DNA of 35,736 nucleotides from a virus, in IMG/VR virus record IMGVR_UViG_3300030339_000143, positions 1 to 35,736 of that record. The stretch is one strand, 5' to 3'. The position numbers and the translations under genes were made by a program. Shown here one piece after another: positions 9,545-18,873 of this stretch (position 1 is its first letter; the number at the start of each line of letters is the position of its first letter). Under the pieces are notes generated by a model. It ran no database searches and was not told where the DNA came from. It saw only the letters and a list, made by a program, of their open reading frames with translations.

Positions 9545-9952
9545 ATGGAAACAAAAGCGAAATTAAATGTAGTGTCGAAAGATGATCAAAAGGCAATTGC
9601 TATTGATATTTTGAAACGCTACCCAAAGGCACAAAAGGTGTCGGTTGCTTCGGATGGTCAGGCTTTTATTACCGATGATGGTGATGCGGCTGCAAAGAAC
9701 CATTCAAAGGTAAATATCTACGGTAAAGAGTTGGAATTGTCAGCATTTACCCGCGATGGATTGAACGCCCCCCCTTCGGCAAGCTCAGGGAACGGCTCAG
9801 GGAACGGTCTCAAGAAAGCTGATGAATTGATTGCAGAAATTAAAGCTGCAACTACAGTGGAACAAGTTGCTGAGTTATTGGCCGGCGATACCAGAACTAC
9901 AGTTGTAGCAGCTGCCGAAAAACAAATCAAAAACATTAATACTCCAGCGTAA
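9545..9952 (+). CDS. Hypothetical head-tail region protein with REP-coded linker
   Basis: This 135-aa protein lies between the capsid and sheath genes. The N-terminal part (KDDQKAIAIDILKRYPKAQK) is helical. The middle, about residues 75-88 (PPSASSGNGSGNG), is a low-complexity linker encoded by a REP-like repeat. The C-terminus (KKADELIAEIKAATTVEQVA) looks like a small three-helix domain as in Mu gp35-like or HeH-type proteins. The stop codon overlaps the next start (TAATG). It may be a head decoration or head-tail joining factor; position suggests a structural role, and I do not recognise a defined family. Confidence 0.7.
   Translation: METKAKLNVVSKDDQKAIAIDILKRYPKAQKVSVASDGQAFITDDGDAAAKNHSKVNIYGKELELSAFTRDGLNAPPSASSGNGSGNGLKKADELIAEIKAATTVEQVAELLAGDTRTTVVAAAEKQIKNINTPA
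9772..9807. repeat. REP-like repeat read in frame
   Basis: CCCTTCGGCAAGCTCAGGGA followed by a partial second unit GCTCAGGGAACGG. It is the Bacteroidota CCCTTCGAC(A)AGCTCAGGGAAC-type repeat, here inside a coding gene, where it supplies the linker PPSASSGNGSGNG. A 13-base tail duplication (9782-9794 repeated at 9795-9807) is also visible. Confidence 0.65.
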
Positions 9953-11196
9953 TGAGTTTCAATGGTACATCGATAAATAAGCTGAATGGTGGTTTAGGTC
10001 GCACATCTGACAATGAGGATAGGGTCATTGTTTTGGTGTGCGGTTTAACTACAACGGGCACTGTAGTACACAAAACTGTGTATGAATTGCTCGACATGAC
10101 AGCGGTAGAAGCATTGGGCATAACTGCCGCTAGTGATGCTTTGAATGGCGAACTAACTCATTATCATTTGAGTGAAATGTTTCGCTTGTGCCCCGGATTC
10201 ACATTCCATTTATTGCCTGTGGCTAAAACTATTACGGTTGCCGATTTGGTGGCTGATGTTGCCATTCTTGGTGCAATTCGTGGTATTAAAGACAGGAATA
10301 TAATCGGTATTTCGGGAATTACTTCGGCTGCGCTGGACGTGATAAACGTGGATGTGTTGGCGTTGCAAGGTATGGTGAATGCATTTGCATTGGAGCATAT
10401 CCTGATTGACGGTGTGATACTGGAAGGTATAGCTAAAACATCAGCTGGGAATTTCTTTGCTGCCGGTGTAGATATATTCGACCTTAGAACTTTGGTTGCT
10501 GCCAATGTAAGTGTAGTGGTGGGAAGTGACCCGGCACAAATGGCATTGAATGCGGCTTATGCAAAACGCGCTGCCGTTGGTACTGTATTAGGGATGGCAG
10601 CTGTGCGGAAAGTTCATGAGGACTTGGGTTCTGTTGATATTGAAGTGAAGCCGTCGAGCCGTAAGGGTGAAGAAAGTTACTCACTTACCGATCAGATAAC
10701 CGGGCGTTGGCTTTCGGCCTCGTTGAGCGATGGAACTCCATTTGCCAACCTGACACTGGCACAGCAAAAGGCTTTGAGTAATAAAGGCTATATCTATGTT
10801 GGCTCTTTTGCTGACTTTAGCGGCTTTTATCTTTCGGGTTCTGCTACGGCAGTGACCATTTCGAGCGATTACGCTTACTTCAATCTGAATTGTATTTGGA
10901 ACAAAGCGGCTCGTATCATTCGCCGTACGTTGATTCCGAAGGTTCGTTCTAAAGTTCCGAAAGAAACGTCGACCGGCTATATTGCTTCAACATGGATTTC
11001 GAGTGCGCAACGTGCTGTACTGGACAAATTGCAACCAATGATCAATGCCGGTAATATTGATGCTGCTGATGTGTATATCAATCCCGCTCAAGTGGTGAAT
11101 GAAAGTACTCCAATGGCTATCAAGGCACAGGTACAAGTTGGTGACATTGTTCACGAATTTGATGTTGACTTAGGTTTAACTTCTAAAATTGAATAG
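9952..11196 (+). CDS. Tail sheath protein (DUF2586-like)
   Basis: The 414-aa product begins MSFNGTSINKLNGGLGRTSD and carries a central QALVGS-like region. It fits the DUF2586 family, which acts as a contractile tail sheath in Bacteroidota myophages. Supporting features are the N-terminal strand, the part RGIKDRNIIGISGI, a hub-like EDLGSVDIEVKPSSRKGEES and the C-terminal handshake strand (MAIKAQVQVGDIVHEFDVDL). The neighbouring tube gene, overlapping by one base, is the expected partner. The ATG overlaps the stop of the preceding gene. No signal peptide or membrane segment is seen. The sheath assignment is strong by gene order; the family name is from memory of the domain. Confidence 0.8.
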   Translation: MSFNGTSINKLNGGLGRTSDNEDRVIVLVCGLTTTGTVVHKTVYELLDMTAVEALGITAASDALNGELTHYHLSEMFRLCPGFTFHLLPVAKTITVADLVADVAILGAIRGIKDRNIIGISGITSAALDVINVDVLALQGMVNAFALEHILIDGVILEGIAKTSAGNFFAAGVDIFDLRTLVAANVSVVVGSDPAQMALNAAYAKRAAVGTVLGMAAVRKVHEDLGSVDIEVKPSSRKGEESYSLTDQITGRWLSASLSDGTPFANLTLAQQKALSNKGYIYVGSFADFSGFYLSGSATAVTISSDYAYFNLNCIWNKAARIIRRTLIPKVRSKVPKETSTGYIASTWISSAQRAVLDKLQPMINAGNIDAADVYINPAQVVNESTPMAIKAQVQVGDIVHEFDVDLGLTSKIE

Positions 11197-11633
11197 TGAT
11201 GAATAAACCAACTATTGTAAACAAATTAGGCAAAATGGCCGGATGGAACTCCATCACAATGAACCTACTTGGTCGTAATGTGGAAGGATTCACAGAGTTG
11301 TCGTATGATGATTCGGTGGAAATTGAAGGTGCGCCAGGAGCGGGTATGTTTTTCGTAGGCTACGGTACAGGAAAATATGCTGCAAAGTGTTCGATAACGC
11401 TTTATACAGAGGAATGGAACGCCATTCAGGCAGCATTGCCAAAAGGCAGCATGTTGAGCGATATCAAACCTTTTCCCATCATTGTGGAATACGAGTACGA
11501 TTTCAAGAAAGTAACTGATATCATCCCTTATTGCATGATTCAAGGTCGCGGTGTGGCTGTGAAGCAAGGCGATAAAACGATAGGTTACAAATCCGACTTG
11601 TTTGTTGGTGGAAAAATTGAGTGGAACGTGTAA
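11196..11633 (+). CDS. Tail tube protein
   Basis: This 145-aa protein directly follows the sheath with a one-base overlap, the normal place of the tube protein (Mu gpM role). It begins MMNKPTIVNKLGKMAGWNSI and is rich in beta strand: VEGFTELSYDDSVEIE, then CSITLYTEEWNAI and IQGRGVAVKQGDKTIGYKSD. This fits the beta-barrel tube fold of contractile tails that stacks as hexamers inside the sheath. Length is typical for the family. An alternative start at the second Met is equally possible. Downstream lie CAGTTATCAGTAA-type repeats and a 9-bp inverted repeat. Confidence 0.75.
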   Translation: MMNKPTIVNKLGKMAGWNSITMNLLGRNVEGFTELSYDDSVEIEGAPGAGMFFVGYGTGKYAAKCSITLYTEEWNAIQAALPKGSMLSDIKPFPIIVEYEYDFKKVTDIIPYCMIQGRGVAVKQGDKTIGYKSDLFVGGKIEWNV

Positions 11634-11640
11634 ACGGTGA

Positions 11641-11696
11641 TCAGTTATCAGTAAACAGTGATCAGTAAAATGGTCACTGTTTAAATACTATTTAAA
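11641..11696. repeat. Repeat cluster: CAGTTATCAGTAA units, hairpin and TTTAAA motif
   Basis: A CAGTTATCAGTAA-type unit is followed by AAACAGTGA (11653-11661) and its complement TCACTGTTT (11674-11682), forming a hairpin. TTTAAA-TACTA-TTTAAA follows at 11680-11696. The cluster fills the gap between tube and chaperone genes. Confidence 0.65.
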
Positions 11697-11726
11697 TAAC
11701 AAAATACAAATTCAAAAAATACGATT

Positions 11727-12263
11727 ATGAAATCAAATTTCAAATTCAAGTTATTGCTTTTAGTGGCTGTGATGGCTACAGCGTTTTTCTGTTTTGGTAA
11801 CGCTCAGGCGTGTACTTCAGTAGCGCATTTTGCGCAAAACATTTCGAGTGAACATGTGGGTTATGCATTGGCCGCTGTGGCTATTGTTCCACTTAGTGAG
11901 TATGTGAAAACTAATTGCACTATTACGGCTGATCAGATCAAAGATTTGACCTTAAAGCATGGTAAAATAAAGATTATGACAGTTGTTGTTGAACCACCTA
12001 CTTACGACGAGAAAGGTAATATTACAGATAAAGGTGAATTCTATAGTTATGCTGTGAAACGTCCGGATGCTAGTGTTATCAGATTATTGGTTGATTATGC
12101 CGAAAAAGGTGATAATGATGGATATTTGAAATGTGTTGTAGCTAATCTGATTGTTGCCGGTGATTTAAATATAATCGAAAGCGATGGTCTAGTCTATGTC
12201 GGCCTTATTTCTGAGGCTAAACAGATGGTGAAGCCTTATCAAAGTTTTTTAGTCAACGCATAA
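11727..12263 (+). CDS. Tail assembly chaperone, short form, with signal-peptide-like start
   Basis: The 178-aa zero-frame product has two parts. The portion from about residue 70 on (TADQIKDLTLKHGKIKIMTV, then DGLVYVGLISEAKQMVKPYQ) resembles the short tail assembly chaperone of Bacteroidota phages (lambda G / Mu gp41 role), which coats the tape measure before the tube forms. The first 70 residues are odd: MKSNFKFKLLLLVAVMATAF then CFGNAQA is a classical signal-peptide shape, and a second hydrophobic stretch follows (ALAAVAIVPL). A cytoplasmic chaperone would not need export, so this may be a fused membrane anchor. A -1 frameshift site is at 12245-12251. Confidence 0.75.
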   Translation: MKSNFKFKLLLLVAVMATAFFCFGNAQACTSVAHFAQNISSEHVGYALAAVAIVPLSEYVKTNCTITADQIKDLTLKHGKIKIMTVVVEPPTYDEKGNITDKGEFYSYAVKRPDASVIRLLVDYAEKGDNDGYLKCVVANLIVAGDLNIIESDGLVYVGLISEAKQMVKPYQSFLVNA

Positions 12264-12502
12264 AGAGAAACGTTCGAGAAATCGAAAGTAGTCTGATAAA
12301 ACAAGGCGATGCCATCATCCGTAAGGAATATGGCATTGAGCCTGAAACATTGGACTACGAAAGGTGGTGTAAGCTTTATGCTGAGTTCTTGTACATGAAC
12401 AAAGTAAACCACGCAAATAAAAAATCGGCCATCATATCAGCGGCCAACGTAATAGTAGAAGCATTCAACAATGTCAGCTCAAACAACCCAGTGGATTCTT
12501 GA
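11727..12502 (+). CDS. Tail assembly chaperone, long form made by -1 frameshift
   Basis: At T-TTT-TTA (12245-12251, in phase with codons AGT TTT TTA) a -1 slip continues into a frame open from 12251 to a TGA at 12500-12502. The fused protein would have 175 + 83 = 258 residues, ending in an acidic/basic helical tail (REIESSLIKQGDAIIRKEYG, then KKSAIISAANVIVEAFNNVS). The extension fills the otherwise geneless gap 12264-12470 and overlaps the tape-measure start by 32 bases, as for lambda GT and Mu gp41-42. The heptamer is the same as in HIV gag-pol. The join location assumes slippage at that heptamer. Confidence 0.85.
12245..12251 (+). promoter_or_regulatory. Programmed -1 frameshift site U UUU UUA
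   Basis: The heptamer TTTTTTA is in the phase needed for simultaneous slippage (third base of AGT, then TTT TTA). It lies four codons before the zero-frame stop. The -1 frame continues open for 83 codons. Confidence 0.85.
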
Positions 12503-14276
12503 ACTTATAGATAAAGTAACCGGTCCGATGAAAGGCGTTACAACCTCTATTGAAAAACCGCTTGCCGGTATCAATAAGTTGGAACTAAGTTCAGGTAAGG
12601 CAATGGATGCTATATCTAGTCAGGTACCTGGCGTTGGTAATGCAATAGGAATGTTGACAAATCCATATATGTTGGCCGCTGCGGGGGCTGCCGCTCTTGG
12701 GGCAGCTGCTTACAAAAGCATTGATATGGCACTTGGTTGGGACAGTGGACTTGCCAAAATAAATGTAACCGCTCAGTTGACAAAAAAAGAACTAACCGGT
12801 TTGTCTGATGAGCTGCTTACAATTGGTAAGGACAATGTTGCCCCAATAGAACAAATACCCGATGCATTTAATAAAATTATCAGTGCCGGTTTGGATGTGA
12901 ACACATCGCTTCAGGTACTTGAGCCAACATTGAAAGCTGCAAAGGCAGGTTTTACGGATGTGGGCGAAACCGGAAAGGCTGCTGTAGCTGTAATGAATTC
13001 GAGTGGTGAAGGCATCACGAAAGTATATGATGTGCTTTTTGCTACTTTGAATAAAGGTAATGCCGAATTTGGTGACGTAGCTCAATACTTGCCGAAACTG
13101 ATACCAATGGCACGAAATGCGGGTTTTGCACTTGGTGAAACAGCGGGTGCATGGGCTTACCTTACTGCCCAGGGACAAACTTCGGAACGTGCCACTACAT
13201 TGGCACAAAATGCAATGAAAGCATTGGCCGACCCTGTAAAGATTGCAGCATTCAAACAAATGGGTATTAATCTTTACGATAGTCACGGTAAGATTTTGCC
13301 ACTTGTAAGCATTATCGACAAACTTTCGTTGAAAACAAAAGGACTTAGTGACCTGAGTAGAGCAAAGTTTTTCGGTAATATCGGTTTAGATCAGGAAGCG
13401 GCTTCATTCTTTGCAACGGCCACTCAGGATGCACAAAAGTTTAGAGAAACGATTGATTTTACAACGAATAGCCAGGGACAACTTGGTGAGGCGTATAAGA
13501 ACTCAATGACTCCGCTTGACAGTTGGCATCAGTTGACAAATATGCTTCAGGGAAGTATGATGCAGCTTGGAGCGAAAGCATTACCGGTTATCAATTCTAT
13601 AGGTCAAGGGATACTTGATACAATCGCGTATTTCAAAAACCTGTACAACGAGTCGGCATTGTTCAGAGATATTCTTTCAGGGTTAGGTTATTTGGTTGAA
13701 GTCAGTTTTAATGCCATTGTTCGCCCAATACAAAATGCCTGGTACTTTGTAAAAGGTTTGTGGGGCGATATCACTTTACTTATTACGCAGATTGGTGCGC
13801 TTGGTGGTGGATGGGAAAACATGTACGCTAAAATAAAGCCAATTGTGTACTACATGAAAGATTTATTCGGTCAACTGGCCACTATCATGTACAAAGTGAT
13901 TACGTTGGATTTTAAAGGGGCTGTTGAGTCGTTCAAAGCATTTAAAATGCCAAACATGGCCGATATGCAAAAGCGCGTAACGGCCGACAATAACGCTTCA
14001 AAAATCAGTGATGATAAGAAGTCGATTGATTTGTCGAAAAAAGGTGTAACGCCAATTATACCAACTAAAAATTTGGATTTTGGAAAATCAGGTTCGGGCA
14101 AAGGCGGCCTATCAGGTTCGGGCGGTGGTGTAGGTGGTGCAAAAACCATTAATCAAAAGATTGAAATTAAAAATTACTTCAATGTATCAGGCGGTGGAGA
14201 TGTGCAGTCGATAGCCGAAACGGTTATCCGCGCCATTAATGACAGGCTAAGGGATGCAACGGTAGCACTTCAGTGA
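12471..14276 (+). CDS. Tail tape measure protein
   Basis: This 601-aa protein directly follows the tail assembly chaperone pair, whose frameshifted product overlaps its start. It sets tail length and is threaded in the tube. The N-terminal region has a hydrophobic Ala-rich segment (about 62-84, PYMLAAAGAAALGAAAYKSI). Then comes the TP901-type core (about 90-350), typical GLDVNTSLQVLEPTLKAAKA and AWAYLTAQGQTSERATTLAQ. A membrane-active hydrophobic stretch follows and a Gly-rich linker (GSGKGGLSGSGGGVGG) precedes a C-terminal domain. Its length predicts a tail near 90 nm by the usual 1.5 Angstrom per residue rule, an estimate only. It is followed by a CCCCC-repeat before the baseplate gene. Confidence 0.88.
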   Translation: MSAQTTQWILELIDKVTGPMKGVTTSIEKPLAGINKLELSSGKAMDAISSQVPGVGNAIGMLTNPYMLAAAGAAALGAAAYKSIDMALGWDSGLAKINVTAQLTKKELTGLSDELLTIGKDNVAPIEQIPDAFNKIISAGLDVNTSLQVLEPTLKAAKAGFTDVGETGKAAVAVMNSSGEGITKVYDVLFATLNKGNAEFGDVAQYLPKLIPMARNAGFALGETAGAWAYLTAQGQTSERATTLAQNAMKALADPVKIAAFKQMGINLYDSHGKILPLVSIIDKLSLKTKGLSDLSRAKFFGNIGLDQEAASFFATATQDAQKFRETIDFTTNSQGQLGEAYKNSMTPLDSWHQLTNMLQGSMMQLGAKALPVINSIGQGILDTIAYFKNLYNESALFRDILSGLGYLVEVSFNAIVRPIQNAWYFVKGLWGDITLLITQIGALGGGWENMYAKIKPIVYYMKDLFGQLATIMYKVITLDFKGAVESFKAFKMPNMADMQKRVTADNNASKISDDKKSIDLSKKGVTPIIPTKNLDFGKSGSGKGGLSGSGGGVGGAKTINQKIEIKNYFNVSGGGDVQSIAETVIRAINDRLRDATVALQ

Positions 14277-16937: not shown

Positions 16938-17348
16938 ATGGCAGATTATAAAACAGCAATTAAGCGCATACTTCAGCATGAAGGCGGCTATGTAAATGAC
17001 CCGAAAGATAACGGCGGTGAAACCTACAAAGGCATTAGCCGAAAGAACTGGCCGAAGTGGACGGGTTGGGCATTTGTGGATCATGCAAAGAAAACGCCCG
17101 GATTCGAAAAACAGTTGAATGCAAACGTGCAGCTTCAGGACTCTGTAATTTCTTTCTACAAGCGTGAGTTTTGGGATAAGATCGGCGGTGATATGATTGC
17201 CAGTCAGACCATATCAAATAATTTGGTAGATGCCGCAGTGAATGAGGGTATTCGCCCGGCAGTTAAGCGAGCTGAAAAAATAGTATTAATGGCCGAAAGC
17301 GGGGTGTTTAGTCCTGAGTTGGCCGAAAAATTGGGGGCTTTAGTATGA
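16938..17348 (+). CDS. Endolysin, GH108-type muramidase
   Basis: The likely ATG is at 16938 (MADYKTAIKRILQHEGGYVN); the in-frame ATG at 16917 would add 7 residues and lies in the repeat. The 136-aa product has the GH108 signature: EGGY, then DNGGETYKGISRKNWPKW, with Glu in HEGGY (about residue 15) as the catalytic acid. It hydrolyses the peptidoglycan glycan strand. The common C-terminal peptidoglycan-binding domain of this family is missing, and the protein is shorter than the typical 170-190 aa. The start of the next gene overlaps its stop by 4 bases. It opens a lysis cassette inserted between baseplate genes. Confidence 0.85.
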   Translation: MADYKTAIKRILQHEGGYVNDPKDNGGETYKGISRKNWPKWTGWAFVDHAKKTPGFEKQLNANVQLQDSVISFYKREFWDKIGGDMIASQTISNNLVDAAVNEGIRPAVKRAEKIVLMAESGVFSPELAEKLGALV

Positions 17349-17713
17349 AAAAGTTTATTTTAGTATGCTTAGTATTCAGTTCGTTATATTTATTATTGAT
17401 GTCATTTGATAGCTTGAGTGAAGGTTCAAATATAAATCATAGCATTGATTCAACGGATTACTACAAGGCTAAATGTGATACACTCACATTCCTGGCATCG
17501 CAGTACGAAAAGTTTCTTATTGATTATGAGAATGAACATACAGTTCTAAAGGATTCAATTAGCCGGTTGAACAAACGCCCAGTGATGACTGAGGCGCAAT
17601 TTATACAACTGTACAAATACGATAGGCTGCTGAAGTATTACAAAATATGCAAGAAAAAACCAAGCCAGTGGAAATATTACAAGGGTTGGAGCATTCGAGT
17701 TTTTGAACAATAA
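17345..17713 (+). CDS. Small membrane-anchored lysis protein (possible i-spanin)
   Basis: This 122-aa protein begins with a hydrophobic anchor (MKKFILVCLVFSSLYLLLMS, residues 1-20). A charged helical region follows that can form a coiled coil (FLASQYEKFLIDYENEHTVL, about 50-69). The cluster of small lysis genes and the 4-base overlap with the endolysin stop make an i-spanin (Rz-like) role plausible: an inner-membrane anchor reaching across the periplasm to an outer-membrane partner. The lipoprotein at 18265 is the matching candidate. The conserved end CKKKPSQWKYYKGWSI is unusual. There is no sequence proof of the function. Confidence 0.6.
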   Translation: MKKFILVCLVFSSLYLLLMSFDSLSEGSNINHSIDSTDYYKAKCDTLTFLASQYEKFLIDYENEHTVLKDSISRLNKRPVMTEAQFIQLYKYDRLLKYYKICKKKPSQWKYYKGWSIRVFEQ

Positions 17714-17726
17714 ATCATTTTGAGTT

Positions 17727-18275
17727 ATGAATAATTACATTACAAGATTCCTTGCTGCCTACGAATACAATTCTTTTGAAGAATTTGTGTTGTCTATTTT
17801 TCCAACATTCAAGTATCATTTGCAGTGGCTTATGTTGCTTATATCAGCAACTTCCGGCACAATGAATTACTTTTTCGGAATGAAGCCGGCTTTAGCCTTC
17901 GCGATGGCTGTAGCGGTAATTATTGAGGTTTATACCGGGATAAAGGCAAGTAAAAAAGAGGGTAAGAAATTCGAGTCGTTCAAGTTCTCGCGCTGTGTGA
18001 TTAAAATAGGCATTTGGCTATTGATACTGTACATTATTCATGCTTTCGAAAAAGAATACGAGTCCAGGACCAACCTTATACAAATGGCCGCTTATGCTTT
18101 CTTTAATTTCGTATACGTGGTTGCTCTTACAGGCTTTTTGGTCGAATACATTACTTCTATACTTGAGAATGTTGCCGTACTGCAAAACAAGCCCAAAACG
18201 CAAATAATTGAAGCCATTCAGGGTGGTTGGTCTAATTTGATAAACTCTATAAAACCAAAGAAAAATGAAAACTAA
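17727..18275 (+). CDS. Holin
   Basis: This 182-aa membrane protein has four predicted transmembrane segments: LMLLISATSGTMNYFFG (about 35-51), PALAFAMAVAVIIEVYTGI (53-71), GIWLLILYIIHAF (about 90-102) and AAYAFFNFVYVVALTGFLVE (about 114-133). It is preceded by an endolysin and followed by a lipoprotein gene, overlapping it by 11 bases. This layout and length match the phage holin 4 / toxin-secretion holin family of Bacteroidota. It would permeabilise the inner membrane at lysis time. The charged C-terminal tail (KPKTQIIEAI, then NSIKPKKNEN) is cytoplasmic and typical for holins. Confidence 0.8.
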   Translation: MNNYITRFLAAYEYNSFEEFVLSIFPTFKYHLQWLMLLISATSGTMNYFFGMKPALAFAMAVAVIIEVYTGIKASKKEGKKFESFKFSRCVIKIGIWLLILYIIHAFEKEYESRTNLIQMAAYAFFNFVYVVALTGFLVEYITSILENVAVLQNKPKTQIIEAIQGGWSNLINSIKPKKNEN

Positions 18276-18873
18276 ACTAAGATTATTACTCTCCATTTGC
18301 ACAATTACGATTGTGTTACTGGTTTCTGCTATTCTTTTTAGCGGTTGCCGAACTACTAAACAATCGACTAAAACGAGCGCAGAAACGACTTTAAAGTCTG
18401 ATTTGACAGCAAATCAAACCAATGCAGCTGCTTTGGATATTGAAAGTAAACTTTCAAAAACGGAAACCAACGACGGTAAAGTTACGAGTATTGATAACAG
18501 CATTGTCGATGAAGTCATTGAGGAAAACTCAACTAAAAACACTTTTTCGCCTCCTGATAGTACCGGTAAGCAATACCTGACATCACAGACGAATACTAAT
18601 AAAAAGACTCATAGAGGTAAGCAAACAGCAATTAAAACGGCTGCTGAGATAAAGGCTAAAGCGGTAACTAATGCTCAGAATAATGACAAATCGGACTATA
18701 AATCCGAAGCGTCCGTAAAGGACAAAAGCAAGGCAACTGATAAAACAAAGGTTGATGATAAAAAGGAAACTGAAACGCAAACGCCTGGTTTTATTACTGC
18801 ATTAGCTGTTATTCTCGGTTTAGCCGGTTGTTTTGGTATTTACTTGCTGTTTAAAAAGTATAAGGTTATTTGA
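18265..18873 (+). CDS. Lipoprotein with C-terminal TM, spanin-like
   Basis: This 202-aa protein has a lipoprotein signal with lipobox LFSGC (Cys28). A long Lys/Thr-rich and probably extended region follows (about 30-170), then a C-terminal transmembrane segment (PGFITALAVILGLAGCFGIY, about 175-194) and a basic tail FKKYKVI. An outer-membrane lipid anchor plus inner-membrane C-terminal segment is exactly the topology of unimolecular spanins such as T1 gp11, which fuse the two membranes at lysis. Classic two-component spanins would instead pair it with the protein at 17345. It overlaps the holin gene by 11 bases. The topology is inferred by eye. Confidence 0.6.
   Translation: MKTKLRLLLSICTITIVLLVSAILFSGCRTTKQSTKTSAETTLKSDLTANQTNAAALDIESKLSKTETNDGKVTSIDNSIVDEVIEENSTKNTFSPPDSTGKQYLTSQTNTNKKTHRGKQTAIKTAAEIKAKAVTNAQNNDKSDYKSEASVKDKSKATDKTKVDDKKETETQTPGFITALAVILGLAGCFGIYLLFKKYKVI

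Follow-up and report, generated by a model that had tools for sequence, protein, structure and literature searches.

A candidate tail-assembly chaperone pair of the lambda G/GT kind, expressed by a predicted -1 frameshift and carrying a signal-peptide-like leader, in a contractile-tailed phage of Bacteroidota

As shown in Table 1, a putative tail-assembly chaperone gene with two reading frames lies between the tail tube and tape-measure genes of IMG/VR record IMGVR_UViG_3300030339_000143, a phage of Bacteroidota with a contractile tail. The whole 35,736-nt record was analysed and is called the window here. This 35.7-kb window is that of a Mu-like contractile phage, with a Mu portal, Mu gp36, an integrase-core transposase and an AAA protein, and family profile matches were also obtained for a DUF2586 sheath, tube, tape-measure and baseplate proteins. 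The order sheath, tube, chaperone, tape measure is kept among relatives. A search of the phage collection for distant DNA relatives of the window returned no match. The 93-base spacer between the tube and chaperone genes (11634-11726) holds repeated GTGATCAGT-like words. The corresponding spacer measures ~0-30 bases in most relatives whose chaperone lacks the leader described below, and 18-207 bases in leader carriers.

Table 1. Features of the chaperone locus and its neighbours in the window.
Feature	Coordinates	Strand	Basis
Tail sheath, contractile tail	9952..11196	+	PF10758 DUF2586 E 7e-34; phrog_907 tail sheath
Tail tube protein, upstream of chaperone	11196..11633	+	phrog_4579 'tail protein' E 7e-23
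Zero-frame gene (G-like), putative 178-aa tail-assembly chaperone with N-terminal leader	11727..12263	+	Position; core fold
N-terminal leader, ~residues 1-65	11727..11922	+	Hydropathy, alignment, charge pattern, absence elsewhere
Putative chaperone core, ~residues 66-178	11923..12260	+	AlphaFold2; alignment with leaderless relatives
Slippery heptamer T TTT TTA, in phase	12245..12251	+	Direct reading; all 32 distinct clade members
Zero-frame stop TAA, 9 bases past heptamer	12261..12263	+	Spacing fixed in clade
-1 frame extension (T-like), 83 codons plus stop, predicted helical hairpin	12251..12502	+	
Tail tape-measure protein	12471..14276	+	phrog_1533 E 3e-39; PF10145 E 2e-31

The 3′ end of the zero-frame gene reads CAA AGT TTT TTA GTC AAC GCA TAA. 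The zero-frame codons of the heptamer are TTT TTA, as tandem -1 slippage requires. The -1 frame entered there runs open for 83 codons to a stop at 12500-12502, fills an apparent gap of 207 bases (12264-12470) and overlaps the tape-measure gene by 32 bases from its ATG at 12471. Fusion of the two frames gives a product with a computed length of 258 aa. The original prediction had proposed U UUU UUA in the correct phase, the 83-codon open frame, the filled gap, the overlap with the tape-measure start and the 258-aa product, and all of these were borne out. As a plain string, TTTTTTA is present in 31 copies in the window, where 27.6 are expected. Because the string is common in this AT-rich DNA, the weight of the heptamer comes from its phase, position and conservation. 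Given a Phe-Leu pair, TTT plus TTA after an NNT codon is expected from codon usage in only ~5% of sequences.

Loci were collected through sheath, tape-measure, chaperone and extension queries, and 58 distinct chaperone loci were resolved by script. The heptamer was TTTTTTA in 32, AAAAAAG in 17 and AAAAAAA in 4, while 5 had none by the rule applied; the last group includes phage fF4 (MN850656), counted there through a wrong ORF choice by the script, with the slip site G GGA AAG. TTTTTTA lies exactly 9 bases ahead of the zero-frame stop in 32/32 distinct clade genes, and AAAAAAG lies 3 bases ahead of it in the 17 distinct loci that have it. The clade set was picked by the heptamer TTTTTTA and the 9-base spacing, and it takes in every resolved locus with a sheath identity of at least ~54% to that of the window, so its conservation is not a product of choice. 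The original prediction had put forward a comparison of both frames in relatives as a check. The -1 frame proved to be uninterrupted in all 32 distinct genes, reaching into or near the tape-measure start. Two of the clade's loci belong to cultured hosts, L050 to Marinilabilia salmonicolor JCM 21150 and L048 to Carboxylicivirga linearis. More distant relatives, among them named phages of the Winoviridae, retain the two-frame architecture, for the most part with A AAA AAG as heptamer.

Among relatives, the two frames and the slip site are conserved, with purifying selection. The pN/pS pooled over close pairs was 0.20 for the extension and 0.24 for the core, values that rest on nine pairs of which one (L045/L051) is probably not truly close, and by this measure the extension evolves under purifying selection. 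Pooled over all pairs, pS was 0.32 in the last six zero-frame codons, which hold the heptamer, vs 0.78 in the core, as would follow from constraint on the nucleotide sequence itself. The -1 frame might instead be a separate small gene, translated from its own start (TTG 12350) or by reinitiation after termination at the zero-frame stop, with the heptamer idle. A 50-aa TTG ORF at 12350-12502 does appear in the ORF listing, and the record of pippi8-1 gives part of the extension a gene of its own, gp39. However, conservation of the -1 frame starts near the heptamer, well upstream of 12350, selection on the frame is like that on the core, and heptamer, phase and 9-base spacing are common to 32 sequences. 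We consider a separate gene very improbable. Judged from sequence comparison, a -1 frameshift at this locus is close to certain, and its kind is an ordinary, conserved phage trick.

No common stem was found when a stimulatory RNA fold was sought in the 60 bases past the heptamer of the 32 sequences (mean z -0.19). A TTCGA-GAAA-TCGAA hairpin of the window was considered as a stimulator and rejected, being present only in the window and its near-copy. With no conserved downstream structure, the ribosome seems to rely on the heptamer and the sequence right around it for slipping. The fixed distance between heptamer and stop may reflect a protein constraint (SFLxxA) or a slowing role, two possibilities that the data do not separate. 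In E. coli constructs, U UUU UUA is reported to shift far less readily than A AAA AAG (PMC5009743), so the frameshift rate is likely to be low, in agreement with the low GT:G ratio of lambda. Three Bacteroides-type relatives (L040, L052, L092) keep the -1 extension, and an in-phase XXXYYYZ heptamer was not found in them. In L040 and L052 a short run of T seems to be the place where the frame changes, so a one-tRNA slip may be used.

The core was modelled by AlphaFold2 as a helix, a beta hairpin and further helices, with pLDDT mostly 76-93 and 64 over the last 8 residues. When the model was compared with 999 solved chains, 3FGX ranked first (Z 7.5, rmsd 2.5, 86 residues), 3KLU second (Z 3.9) and 2OB9 sixth (Z 2.3). 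Among the matches listed by Foldseek, 3FGX had by far the highest probability (0.90, E 0.21). The three chains are given as phage tail-assembly chaperones in PMC9603447, which cites Pell et al. 2013 on this point. The Z-scores are modest, yet three chaperones in the top six are a specific result, and the model suggests that the core has the tail-assembly chaperone fold. The predicted core aligns with HK97 gp13 (2OB9), B. subtilis YqbN (3KLU) and G. stearothermophilus RBSTP2171 (3FGX) at 10-14% identity, and the alignment starts past the leader. Sequence searches of solved structures with profile A1 gave no match, and none of the curated families found names the short form or the extension. The only family that matched, phrog_19076, has no function named and was hit by 12 of 15 members; the window protein had no match.

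Two further observations concern the core. In many Marinilabiliales-type members (L017, L022, L023, L027, L048, L051, L074 and others) the core hairpin has an insertion of ~40-60 residues that separates its two strands. The window copy (L001) and that of IMGVR_UViG_3300028862_000168 (L004) are nearly identical in leader and extension (dS 0.04-0.12), whereas their cores are strongly diverged (dS 0.69), which suggests recombination inside the chaperone gene.

The open -1 frame, purifying selection, the gene order and the resemblance of the core to solved chaperones all support the lambda G/GT-type arrangement named in the original prediction. We estimate a probability of about 0.93 that the locus encodes a tail-assembly chaperone pair of the lambda gpG/gpGT kind through a -1 frameshift, and the window would thereby add a member to that kind. 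The lambda chaperones were described by Levin, Hendrix & Casjens 1993, and their conservation in dsDNA tailed phages by Xu, Hendrix & Duda 2004, both as cited in PMC5009743 and PMC3711429. By analogy with the lambda mechanism (PMC5009743), most ribosomes would stop at the zero-frame stop and release the 178-aa short form, and a minority would slip back one base on U UUU UUA to make the 258-aa form with its 83-residue helical extension. The short form would coat the tape-measure protein, the extended form would recruit tube subunits, and the tail would polymerise around the tape measure. As in lambda, a zero-frame gene lies between tube and tape measure, with a -1 slip near its 3′ end and a conserved -1 extension. 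Unlike in lambda, the heptamer is T TTT TTA, the tail is contractile, the zero-frame protein begins with a signal-like leader of ~65 residues, and it has no sequence match to a named chaperone family.

Named relatives include phages of the Winoviridae. Winogradskyella phage Peternella (MT732475) and Flavobacterium phages pippi8-1 (NC_048830) and FPSV-S1 (MK764442) share the gene order, the two-frame chaperone and the -1 extension. They differ from the window in having the slip site A AAA AAG 3 bases before the stop and in being leaderless. No frameshift annotation or joined CDS is present in these three records or in that of fF4, so that published records of related phages omit half of a tail gene. 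The extension is unannotated in them, or a separate small gene in pippi8-1 and perhaps fF4.

The original prediction overlooked the leader of the zero-frame protein, which is signal-peptide-like. It opens MKSNFKFKLLLLVAVMATAFFCFGNAQA and consists of a helix resembling a signal peptide or transmembrane segment (residues 6-24) and a second apolar stretch, GYALAAVAIVPLSEYV (~43-60). It is present in 29/32 distinct T TTT TTA loci and in one more genome (L107), and missing from all A-rich-heptamer loci examined, as from every other related chaperone looked at. Related leaderless chaperones are mostly ~100-130 aa long and start just ahead of the core. In a tree from core plus extension, the leaderless L049 and L083 nest among leader carriers, so the leader has probably been lost at least twice, with core and frameshift retained. 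It is conserved through the whole clade, with these probable losses. By simple hydropathy and charge, the signal-peptide pattern (positive n-region, apolar h-region, polar c-region) is conserved as a type.

Two origins or roles proposed for the leader were rejected. It does not appear to be a recently fused host gene, as two host genomes had no homologue better than E 0.37. Nor does it accompany tape measures richer in membrane segments; the trend is reversed, with means of 1.2 apolar segments with the leader and 2.1 without, both uncorrected for kinship.

A membrane-targeting-like segment is a surprise on an assembly factor whose site of action is taken to be the cytoplasm. One tentative reading, which supplements the explanation as a frameshifted chaperone and does not compete with it, is that the protein is Sec-targeted to the inner membrane. 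A cleaved Sec signal peptide or an anchor, followed by the second stretch as stop-transfer segment, would target or tether the chaperone there with its core still cytoplasmic, and, in contrast to lambda, the membrane would then be the site of tape-measure coating and tail initiation. The charges of the 29 leaders are consistent with this, being positive in the n-region (29/29), neutral or negative in the loop (28/29) and positive after the second stretch (29/29), although the last positive residues belong partly to the core itself. Several members, including the window, have Q beside the likely cleavage point (residues 25-27), as do most substrates of signal peptidase I in Bacteroidetes (PMC5837995). 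The window chaperone has an N-terminal hydropathy (2.74) that equals that of two small proteins encoded after the endolysin (2.73, 2.85) and exceeds that of the window's other structural proteins. Against an inner-membrane location, the second stretch is just marginally hydrophobic in many members, AlphaFold2 confidence is <50 for residues 17-53, and leaderless members have the same core and frameshift.

It is unlikely, in our judgement, that the leader lies outside the functional chaperone, either because it causes some of the protein to be fully exported or because the true start is downstream. The leaderless L049, L083 and L066 do begin near alignment residue 60. However, the leader is in frame and opens with ATG in 29/29 carriers, purifying selection acts on it (pN/pS 0.52 for its signal part and 0.30 for its middle), and internal start codons are not conserved in position. 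Export of the whole protein would moreover separate the chaperone from the tape measure.

Insertion of the leader into the membrane might also tug on the nascent chain and so stimulate frameshifting. Such stimulation has been demonstrated for the alphavirus structural polyprotein (PMC8682741), which has the same slip site, U UUU UUA, and likewise a membrane segment upstream. The alphavirus segments, however, lie within ~160 bases of the slip site, and the apolar segment of the window ends ~340 bases upstream, a distance that is greater still in members with insertions. Leaderless members also keep the frameshift site. An alphavirus-like role is therefore highly unlikely.

If the leader works as a membrane-targeting segment, tail assembly in the phages of this clade would be membrane-associated. 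Searches of the open-access literature gave no case of a signal peptide or membrane anchor on a tail chaperone, and in that literature a gene with such a leader would be a variant not yet described.

The two small proteins used above for the hydropathy comparison are encoded at 17345-17713 and 18265-18873, directly after a GH108 endolysin, and have signal-like N-termini. The second carries a lipobox-like LFSGC. Both are probably lysis genes.
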